The translations under genes and the position numbers were made by a program. 64,000 nt of DNA from an uncultured Lachnospiraceae bacterium (GTDB lineage Bacteria > Bacillota > Clostridia > Lachnospirales > Lachnospiraceae), in NCBI GenBank assembly GCA_950097145.1, contig CATNCF010000003.1:62001-126000 (forward strand), written 5' to 3'. Positions 29,156-38,275 of the stretch are shown here, in pieces. The notes under the pieces were generated by a model. That model did no database searches. It saw only the letters and a list, made by a program, of their open reading frames with translations, and was not told the origin of the DNA. Within the stretch, counting starts at the first letter, position 1, and every line of letters starts with the position of its first letter.

Positions 29156-29653
29156 ATGGAAAAAGACAAAAAGAAGAAGCTGACGGGGATGTTTTCTGAA
29201 AAATATCAGACGAATTTAAGTGATTTTGCGCTGTTTCTGGCAGTGATGAAAAACAAACTTTTGGACGGTACGGCCAAGATTTTCCTGAATATGACCAGTA
29301 AAAATGGTTCCAAAGAGTTAGTAAGTCTGTTACAATATTGTAAAGAGAGCACATTGGATAATCCGGAAATTTTAGTGGCAGATAAAAGACTTATTGAATT
29401 AGACAGTATTGTAACAGAAGTAAAAGAAAGTGAAGAATGGGAGGCAGTTCAAATGAATATTCTGGAAATTGGATTAGAGAAGGGAATAGAACAAGGAATA
29501 GAACAAGGAATAGAACAAGGAATAGAACAGGGAGAAAAGCGTCTGGGATTGTTGAGTAAAAAACTTCTGGAGGAGAATCGTTTAGATGATCTCAGACAGG
29601 CGCTGGAGGATGCAAAGTACCGTAAAAAACTGTATAGAGAGTACCAAATTTGA
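29156..29653 (+). pseudogene. C-terminal fragment of an Rpn/PD-(D/E)XK transposase-like nuclease
   Basis: The 165 residues match the C-terminal half of Rpn-family (recombination-promoting nuclease, formerly YhgA-like transposase) proteins: FALFLAVMKNKLLDGTAKIFLN, the LLQYCKEST helix, then a glutamate-rich coiled tail ending in EDAKYRKKLYREYQI. The N-terminal PD-(D/E)XK catalytic half, normally 150 or more residues, is missing. A good ribosome site (AGGAGG at 29142) lies before the ATG, so the fragment may still be made. The EQGI repeat in the tail is typical of these proteins. It is most likely a decayed or truncated copy. Its role, if any, is unknown. Confidence 0.65.
29482..29529 (+). repeat. 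Four tandem 12-bp repeats
   Basis: AGGAATAGAACA or a one-base variant occurs four times in a row, encoding the IEQG period in the Rpn-like fragment. The 12-bp unit keeps the frame, so copy number could vary without breaking the gene. Confidence 0.85.
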
Positions 29654-29750
29654 TTTTTAGACCACCTATATCCTGAAATGAACCGAGTATGCCAAATCTA
29701 TTGAAATAGATGGTTCGCTTCATGTAAGATATCACCAGGAGGTGAAAATA

Positions 29751-30191
29751 ATGCAGGTTGAAATTAAAATCGACAGTTCCTGCACAGAACCTAAAATCAT
29801 TGTAATGACAGCTTCCATGACAGAGGAAATTGCCCATATTGTTCAGAAATTGTCAGAGGATGTTCCGCAGGTTATTTCTGGAAGCAGGGATGGGAAAATT
29901 CAAGTGCTGGAGCCTTCAGAACTGATTCGGATATATGCTAATTCCGGTAAGGTCTTTGCAGTAACCAGCAAGGGAGAATATGTTATGCGCCAGAGACTGT
30001 ACGATTTTGAACAGCGGCTGGATGCCAGCCAGTTTGTCCGTATTTCAAATTCAGAAATTGTGAATTTAAGGAAGGTCAGCAATTTTGACTTGAGTATTAC
30101 AGGCACTATCTGTGTGAAATTATCAAATGGCATGGTGACATATGTTTCCAGGAGATACGTTTCTAAGATTAAAAAAATATTAGGGATATGA
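29751..30191 (+). CDS. LytTR-domain DNA-binding regulator
   Basis: A 146-residue regulator made of a short N-terminal region and a C-terminal LytTR domain (about 50-146). The domain shows the beta-strand pattern IQVLEPSELIRIYANSGKVFAVTSKGEY, then LRQRLYDFEQRLDASQFVRISNSEIVNL and a final YVSRRYVSKIKKIL helix. It lacks a receiver domain, so it is the single-domain form. This form is usually paired with a small membrane partner of the DUF3021 type, which follows after nine bases. Such pairs often control their own operon or adjacent transport genes. The ATG at 29751 is chosen because AGGAGG ends nine bases before it; a GTG at 29742 overlaps that site. Confidence 0.88.
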   Translation: MQVEIKIDSSCTEPKIIVMTASMTEEIAHIVQKLSEDVPQVISGSRDGKIQVLEPSELIRIYANSGKVFAVTSKGEYVMRQRLYDFEQRLDASQFVRISNSEIVNLRKVSNFDLSITGTICVKLSNGMVTYVSRRYVSKIKKILGI

Positions 30192-30200
30192 GGTGGTAAT

Positions 30201-30677
30201 ATGAAGAAAACAATGATAAAGCGCAGTGTGATAGGCTTTCCAATTGGCATTGCAGTGGGTTATCTGATTACAATTGTTATTTCTCTTTGCTGGGCAAAAG
30301 GGTTCTATTCTCCCTGTGTGCCGGAACTTATTTCTGTTATGGGAAACGAAATCAATGCGGTGATTTTACAGACATTGCTTTGCGGTCTGCTGGGGACAGG
30401 GGCGGCGGCAGGCTCTGTGGTATGGGAGAACGAACATTGGAGTATTGTAAAGCAGACAGGGATTTATTTTCTTCTGCTTTCGGCATTCATGATGCCAGTG
30501 GCTTATTTCAATTATTGGATGGAGCACAGTGTCAGAGGGTTTGTCAGTTACTTTGGAATTTTTCTTCTGATTTTTGTCATGATATGGATCATTCAATTTA
30601 TAATCGGTAAGAACAATGTGTATAAAATGAATACGAACCTGTATAAAGCAAAGCAGGGGAAAAAAGAATCGAATTGA
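30201..30677 (+). CDS. DUF3021-family four-helix membrane protein
   Basis: A 158-residue protein with four hydrophobic segments (about 11-32, 52-74, 86-105 and 113-137) and short loops, followed by a basic tail. It matches the DUF3021 family, which is nearly always encoded just after a LytTR regulator. The arrangement suggests the membrane protein holds or modulates the regulator at the membrane, but that is inference from genomic pairing. The start has GAGGTGG eight bases upstream. Transcription probably ends before the CIRCE-controlled hsp20 promoter 50 bases downstream. Confidence 0.82.
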   Translation: MKKTMIKRSVIGFPIGIAVGYLITIVISLCWAKGFYSPCVPELISVMGNEINAVILQTLLCGLLGTGAAAGSVVWENEHWSIVKQTGIYFLLLSAFMMPVAYFNYWMEHSVRGFVSYFGIFLLIFVMIWIIQFIIGKNNVYKMNTNLYKAKQGKKESN

Positions 30678-32383: not shown

Positions 32384-32412
32384 TTGTTATAAGATACAAA
32401 TTGGCGTATAAT
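32384..32412 (+). promoter_or_regulatory. Promoter of the amino-acid ABC operon
   Basis: TTGTTA (32384-32389), a 17-bp spacer and a perfect TATAAT (32407-32412) lie 27 bases before the binding-protein start. Confidence 0.7.
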
Positions 32413-32439
32413 TATACATTAATGTCAGGAGGATTATTT

Positions 32440-33240
32440 ATGAAGAATTGGAAGAGAATAACAGCATTGTTACTGGCGGGAGCCATGATAACCGGTATCA
32501 TGGGATGCGGTGTTCCAGCGAATACAGTTCATGCACCGGAAGATATGGCGGGCAAGAAAATCGGCGTGCAGCTAGGAACCACTGGAGATACATTGGTCAC
32601 AGACGAATTTGAAGGCGACAGCACCACCACCGTGGAACGTTATAAAAAGGGAGCGGATGCAGTTCAGTCCTTAAAACAGGGGAAAATTGACTGTGTAGTC
32701 ATTGATTCTGAGCCGGCAAAAGCATTTACAGACCAGAACAAAGATCTGAAAATTTTGGATACAGAGTATACAGACGAAGATTATGCCATCGCGATTGCCA
32801 AAGAGAATACGGAACTGAAAGAAAAGATCAATGGCGCCCTGGCAGAATTAAAGGCAGAGGGTACATTGGATCAGATTATGGCAAATTATACCGGCGATGA
32901 TACCATGGGGACCTGCCCTTATGAGTCCCCGGCAGATGTGGATACCTCCAATGGCAAACTGGTAATGGCAACCAATGCTGCATTTAAGCCCTATGAATAT
33001 TATGAAGACAATAAGATTGTGGGCATTGATGCAGAGATGGCACAGGCAGTTGCAGATAAACTGGGAATGGAGCTTGAGATTCTGGATATGGATTTTGACG
33101 CTATCATCAATGCTGTACAGTCTGGCAAAGCCAATATCGGAGTGGCTGGAATGACAGTCAACGAGGAACGTCTTCAGAGCATTGATTTCAGTGATACGTA
33201 TGCGAAAGCGAAACAGGTGATCATTGTCCGTGCCAAATAG
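32440..33240 (+). CDS. Polar amino-acid binding lipoprotein, circularly permuted
   Basis: A 266-residue lipoprotein with signal and lipobox ending at Cys23 (GIMGC). Its segments are in swapped order for an SBP_bac_3 protein. Residues 34-152 (EDMAGKKIGVQLGTTGD to LDQIMANYTG) match what is normally the second half. Residues 172-266 (GKLVMATNAAFKPYEYYED to KQVIIVRAK) match the normal first half, with the ligand-binding GIDAEMA and GMTVNEERLQSIDFSD. A 20-residue linker joins them. All parts of a working fold are present, so it is a circular permutation rather than a fragment. The ATG at 32440 has AGGAGG eight bases upstream. Permease and ATPase genes follow. Confidence 0.9.
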   Translation: MKNWKRITALLLAGAMITGIMGCGVPANTVHAPEDMAGKKIGVQLGTTGDTLVTDEFEGDSTTTVERYKKGADAVQSLKQGKIDCVVIDSEPAKAFTDQNKDLKILDTEYTDEDYAIAIAKENTELKEKINGALAELKAEGTLDQIMANYTGDDTMGTCPYESPADVDTSNGKLVMATNAAFKPYEYYEDNKIVGIDAEMAQAVADKLGMELEILDMDFDAIINAVQSGKANIGVAGMTVNEERLQSIDFSDTYAKAKQVIIVRAK

Positions 33241-33254
33241 GAGGAAATCTTGCC

Positions 33255-33944
33255 GTGCAGAATTTTATCAATGAATTTACATTGAATTTTATCGATGACA
33301 ATCGATACCAATACATAATAGAAGGATTTATCAATACGCTGATTATTTCCCTGTTTGCAGTGCTGGTAGGAATTGCCATTGGGTTTCTTGTTGCCATTAT
33401 CCGTTCCAGCCACGATAAGACAGGGCATATGAAAGCAGGGAATTTTCTATGCAGGATTTACCTCACTGTGATGCGTGGAACACCGACTATGATTCAGCTA
33501 TTGATTATTTATTACGTAATATTTGCAACGGTCAATATTCCCAAGGTTTTTGTGGCAGTAGTGGCGTTTGGATTGAACTCCGGCGCTTATGTTGCAGAGA
33601 TTGTCCGCTCTGGAATTATGTCTGTAGATGAGGGACAGTTTGAAGCGGGCAGGAGCCTGGGCTTAAATTACCGGCAGACCATGCAGTTTATCATTATGCC
33701 CCAGGCATTTAAAAATGTTCTTCCTGCATTGGGAAATGAATTTATCGTATTATTGAAGGAAACCTCCATCAGCGGTTATATTGGACTGACAGACTTAACC
33801 CACGGCGGGGACATTATAAGAGGAATCACCTTCTCTGCATTTATGCCTCTGATTGCAGTTGCGCTGATTTATCTCTTATTGGTAACCGGGCTTTCCTGGT
33901 GTGTAAGCAAACTGGAGAGGAGGCTGAGAGTCAATGAGCGGTAA
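33255..33944 (+). CDS. Amino-acid ABC transporter permease (HisM/GlnP family)
   Basis: A 229-residue inner-membrane permease with five predicted membrane segments. The ABC coupling (EAA) motif is [22 protein letters not shown], and the family opening [21 protein letters not shown] plus [19 protein letters not shown] are typical of the His/Glu/Gln/Arg importer class. It forms the membrane channel with the adjacent binding protein and ATPase, probably as a homodimer since only one permease is encoded. The start is GTG with GGAGG nine bases upstream. The end overlaps the ATPase gene by 11 bases. Confidence 0.92.
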
Positions 33945-34671
33945 CGTATTGCTGGAAGTAAAGGAATTAAGGAAAGATTTTGGAGACCACTCAGTGCTGA
34001 AAGGTATCAGCACCCAGATTTCTCAGGGAGAAGTGGTTGCAATTATTGGGCCGTCCGGCTGCGGGAAATCTACTTTTTTAAGATCCCTGAACCTGCTGGA
34101 GACTCCCACTGGCGGGAGCGTGGTTTTTGAAGGAAATGAAATCACGGCGCCAGGGACGGATGTCAATAAGATACGCCAGAAGATTGGTATGGTATTCCAG
34201 CAGTTCAATCTGTTTGCGAATCTCACCATCCAGGATAATATTACACTGGCTCCGGTAAAACTGGGGCTGATGGATAAGGAAGAGGCGCAAAAACGGGCAA
34301 AAGAGCTTTTAGAACGGGTAGGGCTTCCAGATAAGGCAGATGCTTATCCTGCAATGCTCTCCGGGGGCCAGAAACAGAGAATTGCCATTGCCCGTTCCCT
34401 TGCAATGAATCCAGACGTCATGCTATTTGATGAGCCTACCTCAGCGCTGGATCCTGAGATGGTTGGAGAAGTGCTGGGATTGATGAAAGAACTTGCGGCA
34501 GACGGTATGACCATGGTGGTAGTAACCCATGAGATGGGATTTGCCAGGGAAGTTGCAACCAGAGTTATGTTTATCGATGAAGGCGTAATCTGTGAGGAGA
34601 ACGCGCCCCAGGAATTTTTTCAAAATCCCAAAAATCAAAGGCTTAAGGATTTTTTATCCAAGGTATTATAG
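33934..34671 (+). CDS. Amino-acid ABC transporter ATP-binding protein (GlnQ family)
   Basis: A 245-residue ATPase. Walker A is GPSGCGKST, the Q-loop is in VFQQFNLF, the signature is LSGGQKQR, Walker B with the D-loop is [15 protein letters not shown], and the switch is VVTHEMGFA. It energises uptake through the upstream permease. Substrates of this class are polar or basic amino acids or cystine; the exact one cannot be told. It overlaps the permease gene by 11 bases, and a terminator lies seven bases after its stop, closing a three-gene operon. Confidence 0.95.
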
Positions 34672-34678
34672 CTCATAT

Positions 34679-34713
34679 GCGCCGGACAGGAGTGAATCCT
34701 CCGGCGCTTTTAT
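34679..34713 (+). terminator. Terminator of the amino-acid ABC operon
   Basis: GCGCCGGA (34679-34686) pairs perfectly with TCCGGCGC (34700-34707) around a 13-nt loop, followed by TTTTAT. It separates the transporter operon from dnaE. Confidence 0.88.
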
Positions 34714-34735
34714 CGTCAGAGAATGGAGGATTATC

Positions 34736-37700
34736 ATGTCATTTGCACATCTTCACGTCCATACGGAGTACAGTCTTTTGGATGGCTCTAATAAAATTAA
34801 AGAATATGTCTCAAGGGTGAAAGAACTGGGCATGGATGCCGCGGCAATCACAGATCATGGCGTTATGTACGGCGTCATTGATTTTTACCGGGCGGCGAAA
34901 GAGGCGGGAGTGAAACCCATTCTGGGCTGTGAAGTCTATGTGGCGCCGGGTTCCCGGTTTGACAGGGAAAAAGTGGAGGGAGAGGACCGCTATTTTCACC
35001 TGATTCTGCTTGCTGAAAATCATACAGGCTATCAGAATCTGATGAAAATCGTTTCCAGAGGATTTACGGAAGGATATTACTACCGGCCAAGAGTAGACCG
35101 TGAGGTGCTTGAGACATATCATGAAGGGCTGATTGTGTTAAGCGCCTGCCTTGCAGGGGAGGTACAGAAACTTCTGCTGCGGGGAGCTTATGAGGAGGCG
35201 AAGGAGGCGGCTCTTTGGCATGACAGAACCTTTGGGCATGGAAATTATTTTCTGGAGCTGCAGGATCACGGGCTGATGGAGCAGCAGCAGGTCAACCAGC
35301 AGCTCATGCGGTTAAGCCAGGACACCGGAATTGAACTTGTGGCGACTAACGATGTGCATTATACGTATGAGACAGACGTGGATTCCCACGATATCCTGTT
35401 GTGTATTCAGACCGGGAAAAAGCTTTCTGACGAAAACAGAATGCGTTATGAGGGCGGACAGTATTTTGTGAAATCAGAGGAAGAGATGCGCGCCCTGTTT
35501 CCCTATGCGCAGCAGGCGCTGGATAATACCCAGAAGATTGCAGAACGCTGTAATGTGGAAATTGAATTCGGCGTTACCAAACTGCCAAAATATGATGTTC
35601 CAGAAGGTTATAGTTCCTGGGAATACTTAAAAAAACTCTGTCATCAGGGATTGGAACGGCGCTATCCCCAGGAAAATGGCACGGTGAAAATTCCAGGCAG
35701 GGAAGAACCCCTGAAAATGGAAGAACTGAAAGAAAAACTTCAGTATGAGCTGGATATTATAAATCAGATGGGATATGTAGATTACTTTTTGATTGTCTGG
35801 GATTTCATTCATTTTGCAAGGGAAAACGGCATTACTGTTGGGCCGGGGCGGGGAAGCGCGGCAGGAAGCCTGGTGTCCTATACTCTGGAGATTACCAATA
35901 TTGACCCCATTCGTTACAACCTTATTTTTGAGCGTTTTCTAAATCCAGAGCGTGTGACCATGCCGGATATAGATATTGACTTTTGTGTAGAACGGCGGCA
36001 GGAAGTAATTGACTACGTCAGTGAGAAATACGGCAAGGACCGTGTGGTTCAGATTGTCACCTTTGGTACCATGGCGGCCCGGGGCGTCATCCGTGACGTG
36101 GGCCGTGTGATGGATTTGCCCTATGCGTTTGTAGATAATATTGCCAAACAGATTCCCACAGAATTGGGGATAACCATAGACAAAGCATTGAAAATGAATC
36201 CAGAGCTGAGAAATAGTTATGAAAACGAGGAAAGCGTACACAGGCTGATTGATATGTCAAAACGCTTAGAAGGACTGCCCAGGCATACTTCGATGCATGC
36301 GGCGGGAGTAGTCATCAGTTCCGAGGCGGTGGATGAGTTTGTGCCCCTTTCCAGAGGAAGCGACGGAGCTATCACTACGCAGTTCACCATGACTACTTTA
36401 GAAGAGCTGGGACTTTTAAAAATGGATTTTCTGGGACTGCGGAACCTTACTGTGATCCAGAATGCTGTAAATCTGATTCATACCAGCCAGAAAGAGGCTG
36501 ATCCAGGGATAACAGAAGAAAAACTTCTTGACATTGACCAGATAGATTTTGACGATAAGGCGGTGCTTGCATCTCTGGGGACCGGACGGACGGACGGGGT
36601 CTTTCAGTTGGAGAGTGCAGGGATGAAAAACTTTATGAAAGAATTAAAGCCCCAGAGCCTGGAGGACATCATTGCGGGAATTTCTTTGTACCGTCCAGGG
36701 CCTATGGATTTTATCCCGGCATATATCCGGGGCAAGAATAACCATCAGGCCGTTACCTATGATTGTCCGCAGCTTGAGCCGATCTTAGAGCCTACCTATG
36801 GATGTATTGTATACCAGGAACAAGTGATGCAGATTGTCCGGGATCTTGCCGGTTATACTCTGGGAAGAAGCGATTTAGTGCGCCGTGCCATGTCTAAGAA
36901 GAAAGCCTCTGTGATGGAACAGGAGCGGAAGAATTTCATTTATGGGAATCCAGAGGAAGGGGTTCCAGGCTGTATCAGCAACGGCATCAGTGAGCAAGTG
37001 GCAAATAAGATCTTTGATGATATGACAGATTTTGCAAAATATGCCTTCAATAAATCCCATGCGGCGGCCTATGCGGTAGTGGCATATCAGACTGCCTTCC
37101 TGAAATATTATTATCCCCTGGAATATATGGCGGCTCTAATGAGTTCCGTGATGGATCATGTAGGAAAAATTTCTGAATATATTTTTACCTGCCGCCAGAT
37201 GGGGATTGCAGTGCTGCCTCCCAGCATCAACGAAGGAGAGAGCGGGTTTTCAGTGTCGGCTCATGGGATTCGTTATGGATTGTCTGCAATTAAGAGTGTC
37301 AGCCATACTTTTATTGAAAAACTCTGTGAAGAGCGGAACGAACGGGGCAGGTTTAAAAGTCTTAAGGACTTTCTTACCCGGATGGCGGAACGGGAGATTA
37401 ATAAGCGCATGGTTGAGAATCTCATTAAGGCGGGGGCGCTGGATCATCTGGGTGCAACCAGAAAGCAGAGCATGATGGTGTATGCAGGGATTATGGAGGA
37501 TATTACCCAGGATAAGAAAAATACCATGGCAGGGCAGATAACTTTGTTTGACCTTGTGGGAGAAGAAGAAAAAGCGGATTTTGAGGTGAAGCTTCCAGAT
37601 GTGGGAGAGTATTCCAAAGAAGTCTATCTGGGCTTTGAGAAGGAGGTGCTTGGGGTTTATATCAGCGGGCATCCTCTGGAAGAATATGAAGAAAAATGGC

Positions 37701-38275
37701 GGAAAAATATAACCAGGCTTACCACAGATTTCCAGCTTGAAGAGGAGAGCGGCCAGACACGGGTAAAAGAGGGAGAAACCGCAATGGTAGGCGGAATGAT
37801 TGTGGATAAGACCATGAAATATACCAGACAGAATCAGGCTATGGCGTTTATCACCTTAGAAGATCTGGTGGGCACTCTGGAAATCGTTATTTTTCCAAAA
37901 AGTTATGAGAAAAACAGCCGTCTTTTAAATGTGGATGAGAAAGTATTTGTCCGGGGCAGGGTACAGACGGAGGATGAGAAAAATGCAAAACTGATCTGTG
38001 AGAAGATTTATTCCTTTGATGACACAAAAAGAGAATTGTGGCTGCAGTTTCCAACCCGGGAGGCCTATGCCCAGCAGGAAGATGAAATTTTTGAACTGCT
38101 TCGGGAAAGCGATGGCAGAGACGGCATCGTGATTTATATTTCCAGTGGGAAACAGATGAAACGCCTGCCCCCCAGCAGAAATATTTCTGCCCGGCCGGAA
38201 CTTATCAGCAGATTGACGGAGGCTTTGGGAGAAAATAACGTAAAACTTGTAGAAAAGAGTATTGAAAATCTATGA
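34736..38275 (+). CDS. dnaE: DNA polymerase III subunit alpha, DnaE type
   Basis: A 1179-residue replicative polymerase of the DnaE class. The PHP domain opens with FAHLHVHTEYSLLDG. The polymerase core holds GPGRGSAAGSLVSY and the catalytic MPDIDIDFCVERRQEV, followed by the fingers region FATYGTMAARG-like VTFGTMAARGVIRDVGRV. Tandem HhH and OB domains form the C-terminal third, where GGMIVDKTMKYTRQNQAMAFITLEDLVG is the OB fold. In low-GC Gram-positives DnaE works with PolC to extend primers. The ATG at 34736 has GGAGGA six bases upstream; further upstream the frame merely overlaps the ABC ATPase. pfkA follows, a common arrangement in Firmicutes. Confidence 0.97.
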   Translation: MSFAHLHVHTEYSLLDGSNKIKEYVSRVKELGMDAAAITDHGVMYGVIDFYRAAKEAGVKPILGCEVYVAPGSRFDREKVEGEDRYFHLILLAENHTGYQNLMKIVSRGFTEGYYYRPRVDREVLETYHEGLIVLSACLAGEVQKLLLRGAYEEAKEAALWHDRTFGHGNYFLELQDHGLMEQQQVNQQLMRLSQDTGIELVATNDVHYTYETDVDSHDILLCIQTGKKLSDENRMRYEGGQYFVKSEEEMRALFPYAQQALDNTQKIAERCNVEIEFGVTKLPKYDVPEGYSSWEYLKKLCHQGLERRYPQENGTVKIPGREEPLKMEELKEKLQYELDIINQMGYVDYFLIVWDFIHFARENGITVGPGRGSAAGSLVSYTLEITNIDPIRYNLIFERFLNPERVTMPDIDIDFCVERRQEVIDYVSEKYGKDRVVQIVTFGTMAARGVIRDVGRVMDLPYAFVDNIAKQIPTELGITIDKALKMNPELRNSYENEESVHRLIDMSKRLEGLPRHTSMHAAGVVISSEAVDEFVPLSRGSDGAITTQFTMTTLEELGLLKMDFLGLRNLTVIQNAVNLIHTSQKEADPGITEEKLLDIDQIDFDDKAVLASLGTGRTDGVFQLESAGMKNFMKELKPQSLEDIIAGISLYRPGPMDFIPAYIRGKNNHQAVTYDCPQLEPILEPTYGCIVYQEQVMQIVRDLAGYTLGRSDLVRRAMSKKKASVMEQERKNFIYGNPEEGVPGCISNGISEQVANKIFDDMTDFAKYAFNKSHAAAYAVVAYQTAFLKYYYPLEYMAALMSSVMDHVGKISEYIFTCRQMGIAVLPPSINEGESGFSVSAHGIRYGLSAIKSVSHTFIEKLCEERNERGRFKSLKDFLTRMAEREINKRMVENLIKAGALDHLGATRKQSMMVYAGIMEDITQDKKNTMAGQITLFDLVGEEEKADFEVKLPDVGEYSKEVYLGFEKEVLGVYISGHPLEEYEEKWRKNITRLTTDFQLEEESGQTRVKEGETAMVGGMIVDKTMKYTRQNQAMAFITLEDLVGTLEIVIFPKSYEKNSRLLNVDEKVFVRGRVQTEDEKNAKLICEKIYSFDDTKRELWLQFPTREAYAQQEDEIFELLRESDGRDGIVIYISSGKQMKRLPPSRNISARPELISRLTEALGENNVKLVEKSIENL

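Follow-up and report, generated by a model that had tools for sequence, protein, structure and literature searches.

Circularly permuted SBP_bac_3 lipoprotein of a GlnPQ-type operon in a Lachnospiraceae bacterium and repeated chain rotation among its relatives

The window, i.e., the whole stretch of DNA that was analysed, comprises 64,000 nucleotides of a contig from an uncultured Lachnospiraceae bacterium; all window features named below are on its forward (+) strand. The gene of interest (32440..33240) encodes a lipoprotein of 266 aa that belongs to the SBP_bac_3 amino-acid binding proteins (PF00497), as judged from Pfam, NCBIfam, the alignment with the structure 4zv1 and an AlphaFold2 model. 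It is preceded by a sigma-70-like promoter candidate (TTGTTA-17-TATAAT; 32384..32412), which matches the consensus in 10/12 positions within a scan that yields 8 sites in the region versus a mean of 5.7 in its shuffles. A ribosome binding site (AGGAGG; 32427..32432) is located 7 bases 5' of the ATG. The first codons (32440..32508) provide a signal peptide followed by a lipobox, MKNWKRITALLLAGAMITGIMGC, where IMGC covers residues 20-23. That is, signal peptide and lipobox cysteine (Cys23) of a lipoprotein are both present, and the lipobox is intact as an earlier sequence-only reading of this DNA had stated.

Directly downstream follow the two partner genes which the same reading had named. The first one encodes a GlnP-like amino-acid ABC permease (33255..33944; GTG start), supported by PF00528 (6.2e-21) and HEQRo_perm_3TM (68.7 bits, cut-off 42.2). 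The second one encodes a GlnQ-like ABC ATPase (33934..34671; PF00005, 8.6e-40). The locus thus combines a binding protein with the adjoining 3TM-type permease and ATPase of a GlnPQ-type importer. Bit scores for the GlnH, GlnP and GlnQ equivalog models are 112, 149 and 317 (the latter being the top NCBIfam match of the ATPase), compared to cut-offs of 303, 303 and 379, such that we do not assign glutamine as the ligand. A structure prediction of the permease alone, computed without an alignment, was poor (pLDDT 53) and is not used here.

Further observations concern the neighbourhood. A long ORF (34592-38275), by eye presumably DNA polymerase III alpha-like, overlaps the ATPase gene when its mechanical GTG start is taken; the methionine of MSFAHLHVHTEYSLLDG is the likelier start. 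Upstream, we find an ORF of 165 aa (29156-29653) with IEQG repeats near its end and without Pfam match at E<=0.001, followed by genes for a LytTR regulator and a DUF3021 protein (29742-30677), for which a regulator-target relation is a guess. Independently, locus L005 (1249-3261, +) holds the start of a 1004-aa frame that shows, by eye, SBP_bac_3-like sensor domains and a GGDEF-like region; it sits behind what looks like a dihydrodipicolinate-reductase-like gene.

The binding protein matches PF00497 with 118.1 bits (gathering cut-off 26.4) in two stretches, where positions 51-131 of the profile are encoded 5' of its positions 1-97. The same reversal is observed for NCBIfam models, where residues 29-150 are matched by TIGR01096 positions 122-249 and residues 169-265 by positions 22-118 of the GlnH model. 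It is also found for the ancestral glutamine-binding protein AncQR (4zv1), where positions 9-103 align with residues 171-264 and positions 108-232 with residues 29-152. These alignments bear out the central claim of the sequence-only reading, namely that residues 34-152 form the usual C-terminal half and residues 172-266 the usual N-terminal half, that both halves are complete and that the chain is cut at a hinge crossing. The linker between both halves, given there as 20 residues, counts 19 (residues 153-171).

For a uniform description, we cut the canonical fold at its two hinge crossings into the segments N, C1 and C2. Here, C1 is lobe 2, while N and C2 together form lobe 1. The canonical order is N-C1-C2. 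In the window protein, profile and structure alignments place C1 first (residues 34-102; 32539..32745). It is followed by C2 (residues 103-152; 32746..32895), which contributes hinge strand 2 as well as the C-terminal portion of lobe 1. Next comes the linker (32896..32952), which connects the C terminus of the canonical fold to its N terminus within lobe 1, and finally N (residues 172-266; 32953..33237), i.e., the N-terminal part of lobe 1, which closes with hinge strand 1. We refer to the resulting order C1-C2-N as type A. Since the canonical order of N before C is not given, we file the protein as a circularly permuted variant of the SBP_bac_3 amino-acid binding proteins and not as an ordinary member.

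The residue pattern is that of an amino-acid binding protein. The Arg of AGMTxxxxR, the Asp of VxxDxxPA and the GTTGD motif are invariant or nearly so in an alignment of 52 type A rows (mean column identity 69%), and Arg, Asp and Thr-Gly of the window protein align with the alpha-amino-acid site residues of 4zv1. We take these positions to be the ones that contact an amino-acid ligand. At E<=1, Pfam reports PF00497, PF10613, PF09084 and PF14503 for the window protein and no sugar-binding type I family; the permuted type I sugar-binding fold of Type Ic / Cluster Bc proteins (TpMglB-2-like) is not what is found here.

AlphaFold2, provided with the 52-row alignment of permuted relatives, yields a single confident model (pLDDT 92.1, pTM 0.86). 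Within the mature chain, a long strand (88-96) is predicted for hinge 2, and the terminal strand (232-241) corresponds to the old hinge strand 1. The sequence-only reading had named a prediction of two incomplete lobes without a common bilobed fold as evidence against a permutant; the model gives no such picture, where its superposition onto known structures was sequential only. The sequential TM-scores, normalized by query length, range from 0.33 to 0.52 among the 50 Foldseek matches listed, which is what a permutant should give. The top PDB match of the model is 6h30, the SBD1-SBD2 tandem of GlnPQ. Profile searches against the PDB single out the same entry: among the best 60 of 80 matches of the type A profile, only in 6h30 does the best stretch span most of the profile, and among 51 matches of a type B profile (C2-N-C1, see below) only the best stretch of 6h30 continues from C2 to N. 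The type A order is embedded in 6h30 because the C half of SBD1 is followed by the N half of SBD2. That is, 6h30 consists of two canonical domains in tandem, in contrast to the stand-alone permutant of the window.

We studied how widely the reversed order is distributed, which the sequence-only reading had proposed as a check. Using the window protein as query, at least 43/200 family genomes (own genome included) show a collinear full or near-full match, a count that leaves out G195, a canonical triple. In a scan of named genomes, we took the best 80 of 170 relatives, and 80/80 of these loci are type A, including one on the complete Blautia parvula chromosome (L101). Among these 80, L110 has no in-frame signal peptide; elsewhere, the gene of L132 is cut by a contig end. 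The loci L001-L117, some of which overlap, provide 92 ORFs of the C-N type, 21 in which C-N is fused to a permease and one C-N-C-N-permease gene that is recorded 3 times. At class level, the type A profile matches over at least 200/235 positions in 23/391 genomes. The phylum search (299 genomes, E<=1e-40, more than 225 positions) returned the own-family genomes G000 and G311, the stand-alone L188 and the tandem fusion L189.

We also performed a Pfam search that is not built on permuted proteins. It reveals at least one permuted protein in 10/19 family genomes (9/18 besides the window's own), where unfetched single rows spanning the whole PF00497 profile in order were counted as canonical. Single type A genes are present in G000, G001, G003, G006, G008, G014 and G017, tandem type A genes in G000 and G012, and type B genes in G004, G007 and G017. 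We therefore reject the idea that the permutation is a unique oddity of the window's genome, since many genomes carry it. Among 30 type A genomes tested (chosen from those found), none contains a full-length close canonical orthologue at E<=1e-40; the canonical profile produces half matches within the permuted gene in 19 of them and none in 11. This implies that the rotated gene replaces the close canonical orthologue and does not accompany it. Distant canonical family members coexist with type A genes, e.g., L001 in the window's genome.

Type A is not the only rotation. When the ORFs of L001-L249 are assigned by segment profiles, we find 57 in canonical order, 141 of type A and 46 with the order C2-N-C1 (type B), besides tandems and one ORF with an N match alone. 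In terms of distinct ORFs, these are 55 canonical, 126 type A and 39 scored as C2-N-C1; both type B counts include L194 and L195, without which 44 ORFs (37 distinct) remain. In type A as well as in type B, a join between the canonical termini (within lobe 1) is combined with a break at one hinge crossing, such that one covalent crossing is left and the otherwise discontinuous lobe 1 becomes contiguous. A type B search in 245 genomes resulted in 22/22 loci of type B. The canonical search in 245 genomes found matches in 63, of which some unfetched ones are partial matches in type B genes, while 30/30 fetched loci are canonical. The sequence set was seeded by type A, type B and canonical searches, mostly of one subfamily, and the segments are coarse, i.e., further cut points may exist.

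L194 (1393-2214, -) and L195 (585-1547, +), from two genomes of one genus, represent a third rotation that is cut inside lobe 2. Both were scored type B by the segment profiles at first. Their chain begins in the middle of C1, continues with C2 and N, and closes with the initial portion of C1 (C1b-C2-N-C1a). Both are near the type A protein L188: front, N part and tail of L194 are 57%, 57% and 58% identical to L188 residues 63-177, 179-270 and 36-66, respectively, and the pieces also align with the canonical L144 at the corresponding places. The assumption that rotations are confined to hinge crossings is thus contradicted by these two sequences.

Within type A, the linker length is nearly constant. 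Among 116 type A ORFs, the gap between the matched regions of both halves ranges from 13 to 24 aa with 16 being most common (59/116), and the lipobox pattern is found in 99/116. Some genes deviate from the single-copy form. In the window's own genome, L004 (775-3069, -; contig C19) encodes 764 aa with the order C-N-C-N-permease, i.e., two permuted domains in tandem. L296 (G012) shows the C-N-C-N order together with permease and ATPase matches in one frame, and L189 is similar. In L134 (2024-3784, +), two different type A genes adjoin each other ahead of one permease and one ATPase gene.

To count origins, we used a tree of 99 rows that represent 223 distinct units, with the short units L132, L194 and L195 left out. 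At least 7 changes are required to explain the three orders on this tree, and from the starred branches a minimum of 4 follows for type B and of 2 for type A. A single permutation event is rejected, since AU tests reject the grouping of all type B rows as one clade (p-AU 1.6e-47) as well as of L127, L180 and L186 (p-AU 1.7e-5). The groups of these tests were named after the tree had been seen, the bootstrap was not settled and five type A rows are long-branched. For these reasons, we did not assign origins of their own to minor type A clades, which may add to the number of events.

L127 (1734-2555, +; type B) appeared as a fourth type B origin in the concatenated tree. We dropped this origin, since its linker (YISGxxHDLTFQxN) and N segment are like those of the L180 clade. 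Its C1 segment is like that of other canonical proteins, and the sequence suggests a mosaic that may result from recombination between permuted and canonical genes. We thus count three type B origins, namely the main clade, the L180+L127 group and genus g258. For type A, we count the main clade and L290/L291 (476-1303 and 473-1300, both +), which belong to a second SBP_bac_3 subfamily (VWNGMT type). With the canonical L001 from the window's genome, the latter share 78% (N) and 58-60% (C) identity, compared to 31-37% between L290 and the window protein. Including the cut inside lobe 2, this gives at least 6 rotation events in total. For the lobe-2-internal rotation, the starting point may have been a type A protein, e.g., L188.

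Genus g258 provides a before-and-after comparison on the DNA level. The type B locus L250 and the canonical locus L253 are collinear from 3 kb upstream to just past the lipobox (70% nucleotide identity). There, L250 continues with 149 bp of C2, which match the 3' end of the canonical L253 gene (81%), followed by 515 bp that correspond to N-C1 of L253 (83%). Downstream sequence, permease and ATPase are again collinear. On the segment level, the identities of this pair are 94% (N), 86% (C1) and 78% (C2; L187 vs. L220). The canonical stop context AGGCTGATA and a terminator-like hairpin behind it are kept in L250, where C2 is absent ahead of them. The same pattern is seen on both sides of another type B locus (L252). 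For a third one (L251), rotated blocks and downstream synteny are observed, with no upstream match to L253 in this comparison. The linker of the L250 type starts like a canonical C-terminus (YIP) and ends like the canonical spacer behind the lipobox (FTTxExG).

A further case is L128 (1313-4231, -). It carries three in-frame N-C1-C2 repeats, 93-94% identical to each other and fused to a permease, i.e., a recent triplication. This implies that in-frame tandem duplication happens in this protein family, where L128 itself, being of canonical order and permease-fused, is not a direct ancestor of the permutants. Taken together, the L250/L253 and L128 observations support a duplication followed by two deletions, since this explains them by known mutation types. 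For the clade of the window protein, our sequence set contains no near-identical canonical/permuted pair. Its closest canonical relative in this set is 66% identical, such that the route of this lineage is assigned by analogy.

Given these observations, we consider the window gene to encode a working binding lipoprotein of a GlnPQ-type importer that was rotated at hinge crossing 1, likely via duplication and deletion (probability of roughly 0.8). In this protein, lobe 2 comes first, directly behind the lipid anchor, followed by the sole covalent crossing (hinge 2) and by lobe 1, whose two once separate pieces are joined by the linker. The old hinge strand 1 is now a free C-terminal strand that is probably still packed in the hinge. 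The conserved Arg, Asp and Thr-Gly would bind an alpha-amino acid, as far as the sequence tells. The lobes would close on the ligand as usual, and the closed protein would dock on and feed the permease. The most likely origin would be an in-frame tandem duplication with subsequent deletion of the front N block and the trailing C block, by which signal peptide and stop would be retained. Similar events, resulting mostly in type A (cut at hinge 1) or type B (cut at hinge 2), were repeated in Clostridia and their relatives.

A broader proposal is that the rotation itself is adaptive. That is, amino-acid binding proteins of Clostridia would be permuted recurrently via tandem intermediates, predominantly at hinge crossings, and the products kept by selection. 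The single covalent crossing and the new anchor position, which is lobe 2 for type A and lobe 1 close to the hinge for type B, would tune opening, stability or docking, or the rotated chain would favour a permease fused to its hinge end. Possible effects on opening dynamics or permease docking had also been suggested in the sequence-only reading. The repeated origin, mostly at the two hinge crossings, and the long retention across many genera fit this proposal. So does the spacing between anchor cysteine and first segment, which is shorter for the permutants (median of 12 residues for type A and 10 for type B vs. 17 for canonical proteins). The same applies to the frequency of permease fusions, found in 24/126 distinct type A sequences compared to 0/55 canonical and 0/39 scored type B sequences (single-copy; 7-16 residues between the matched regions in 21 type A-permease ORFs). 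However, sister genera use canonical relatives of about 60-66% identity (per whole protein or per half) in operons of the same type. Fusions of canonical order exist in the wider family (L271, L274, L293 and the triple L128), such that permease fusion is not upheld as a hallmark of type A and is not special to permutants. Furthermore, one lineage is cut inside a lobe, lobe boundaries are the least harmful cut sites anyway, and the sampling was seeded mostly with profiles of one subfamily. We thus regard an adaptive role as a tentative idea with the odds against it.

The working rotated lipoprotein that we favour might also have arisen in one step, i.e., a segment would have been excised and reinserted within the gene without a tandem intermediate. 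The L250/L253 comparison could be read this way, since C2 immediately follows the lipobox region and none of the other gene blocks is doubled. Against it, no mobile-element signature was seen by eye in the L250/L253 junctions inspected, in-frame tandem duplication is demonstrable in the family (L128), and the linker ends of L250 are those that a partial duplication predicts. A one-step relocation is therefore improbable.

Less probable still is a domain-swapped or two-chain assembly in which each lobe would pair with the lobe of a neighbour. Swapped dimers are reported for a Thermotoga arginine-binding protein (PMC4022495), and the tandem gene of the own genome (L004) could pair lobes between its copies. 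In contrast, the model of the monomer is confident, and the near-constant linker length is as expected if the canonical termini are joined within one lobe.

A chance order, a pseudogene, a frameshift product or a misassembled tandem gene, for which one could name only L110 and L132 with their missing signal peptide and contig end, has a negligible probability in the light of the open frame, residue conservation over 52 aligned rows, many independent assemblies and synteny; neither the assembly error nor the longer tandem protein which the sequence-only reading had considered applies to this stand-alone gene with its own stop.

The rotated lipoprotein can be related to known systems. It is like GlnH/ArtJ/HisJ-type SBP_bac_3 proteins (PF00497, type II fold; which we take to be 'cluster F') in having both lobes, the site-type residues, a lipid anchor and a GlnP/GlnQ-like operon. 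It is unlike them in its chain order (C1-C2-N vs. N-C1-C2), the single covalent crossing, the contiguous lobe 1 and the anchor on lobe 2. Among other known permutants, OpuAC and ProX are presumably type II binding proteins with regard to their fold. These glycine-betaine proteins are permuted relative to each other, which was inferred from structures (CPSARST) at less than 24% identity (PMC2395249); they share the permutation with the window protein, while section 11 of that source mentions no change of order among orthologous operons or inside a genus.

TpMglB-2 (Tp0684) of Treponema is a further natural circular permutant among ABC binding lipoproteins. This 'Type Ic / Cluster Bc' glucose-binding lipoprotein is reported to bind its ligand, to change conformation and to have relatives in Gram-positive gut bacteria (PMC4990184). 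It differs in its type I sugar fold, which gains a fourth hinge crossing where the window type loses one of two. It also differs in that its parts are 13% and 26% identical to EcMglB (PMC4990184), compared to about 60-90% per segment between our permutants and canonical relatives. In addition, lobes were made contiguous by permutation in engineered halves of the ribose-binding protein (PMC9815098); these are designed, separate lobes of a type I fold, unlike the natural window protein. For PF00497 proteins, we found no report of a natural permutation in the open-licence literature. That is, natural permutation of binding proteins is already known, while the PF00497 case with its unusually good material on origins appears to be new.

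Compared to the sequence-only reading, the breadth of the permutation, the further rotations and an origin that can be read from the DNA are additions. The origin and neutrality of natural circular permutations are a long-standing question, mostly addressed with proteins of low sequence identity. In our case, the occurrence of both chain orders within orthologous operons, the syntenic pair L250/L253 and L128, a tandem as one would expect for an intermediate, make the steps and the functional cost directly testable. Profile-based annotation hides the permutation, which affects 10/19 of the sampled family genomes. Natural scaffolds with free hinge ends may furthermore suit biosensor design. If the tentative adaptive proposal were true, chain rotation would be a recurrent adaptive mode of transporter evolution.
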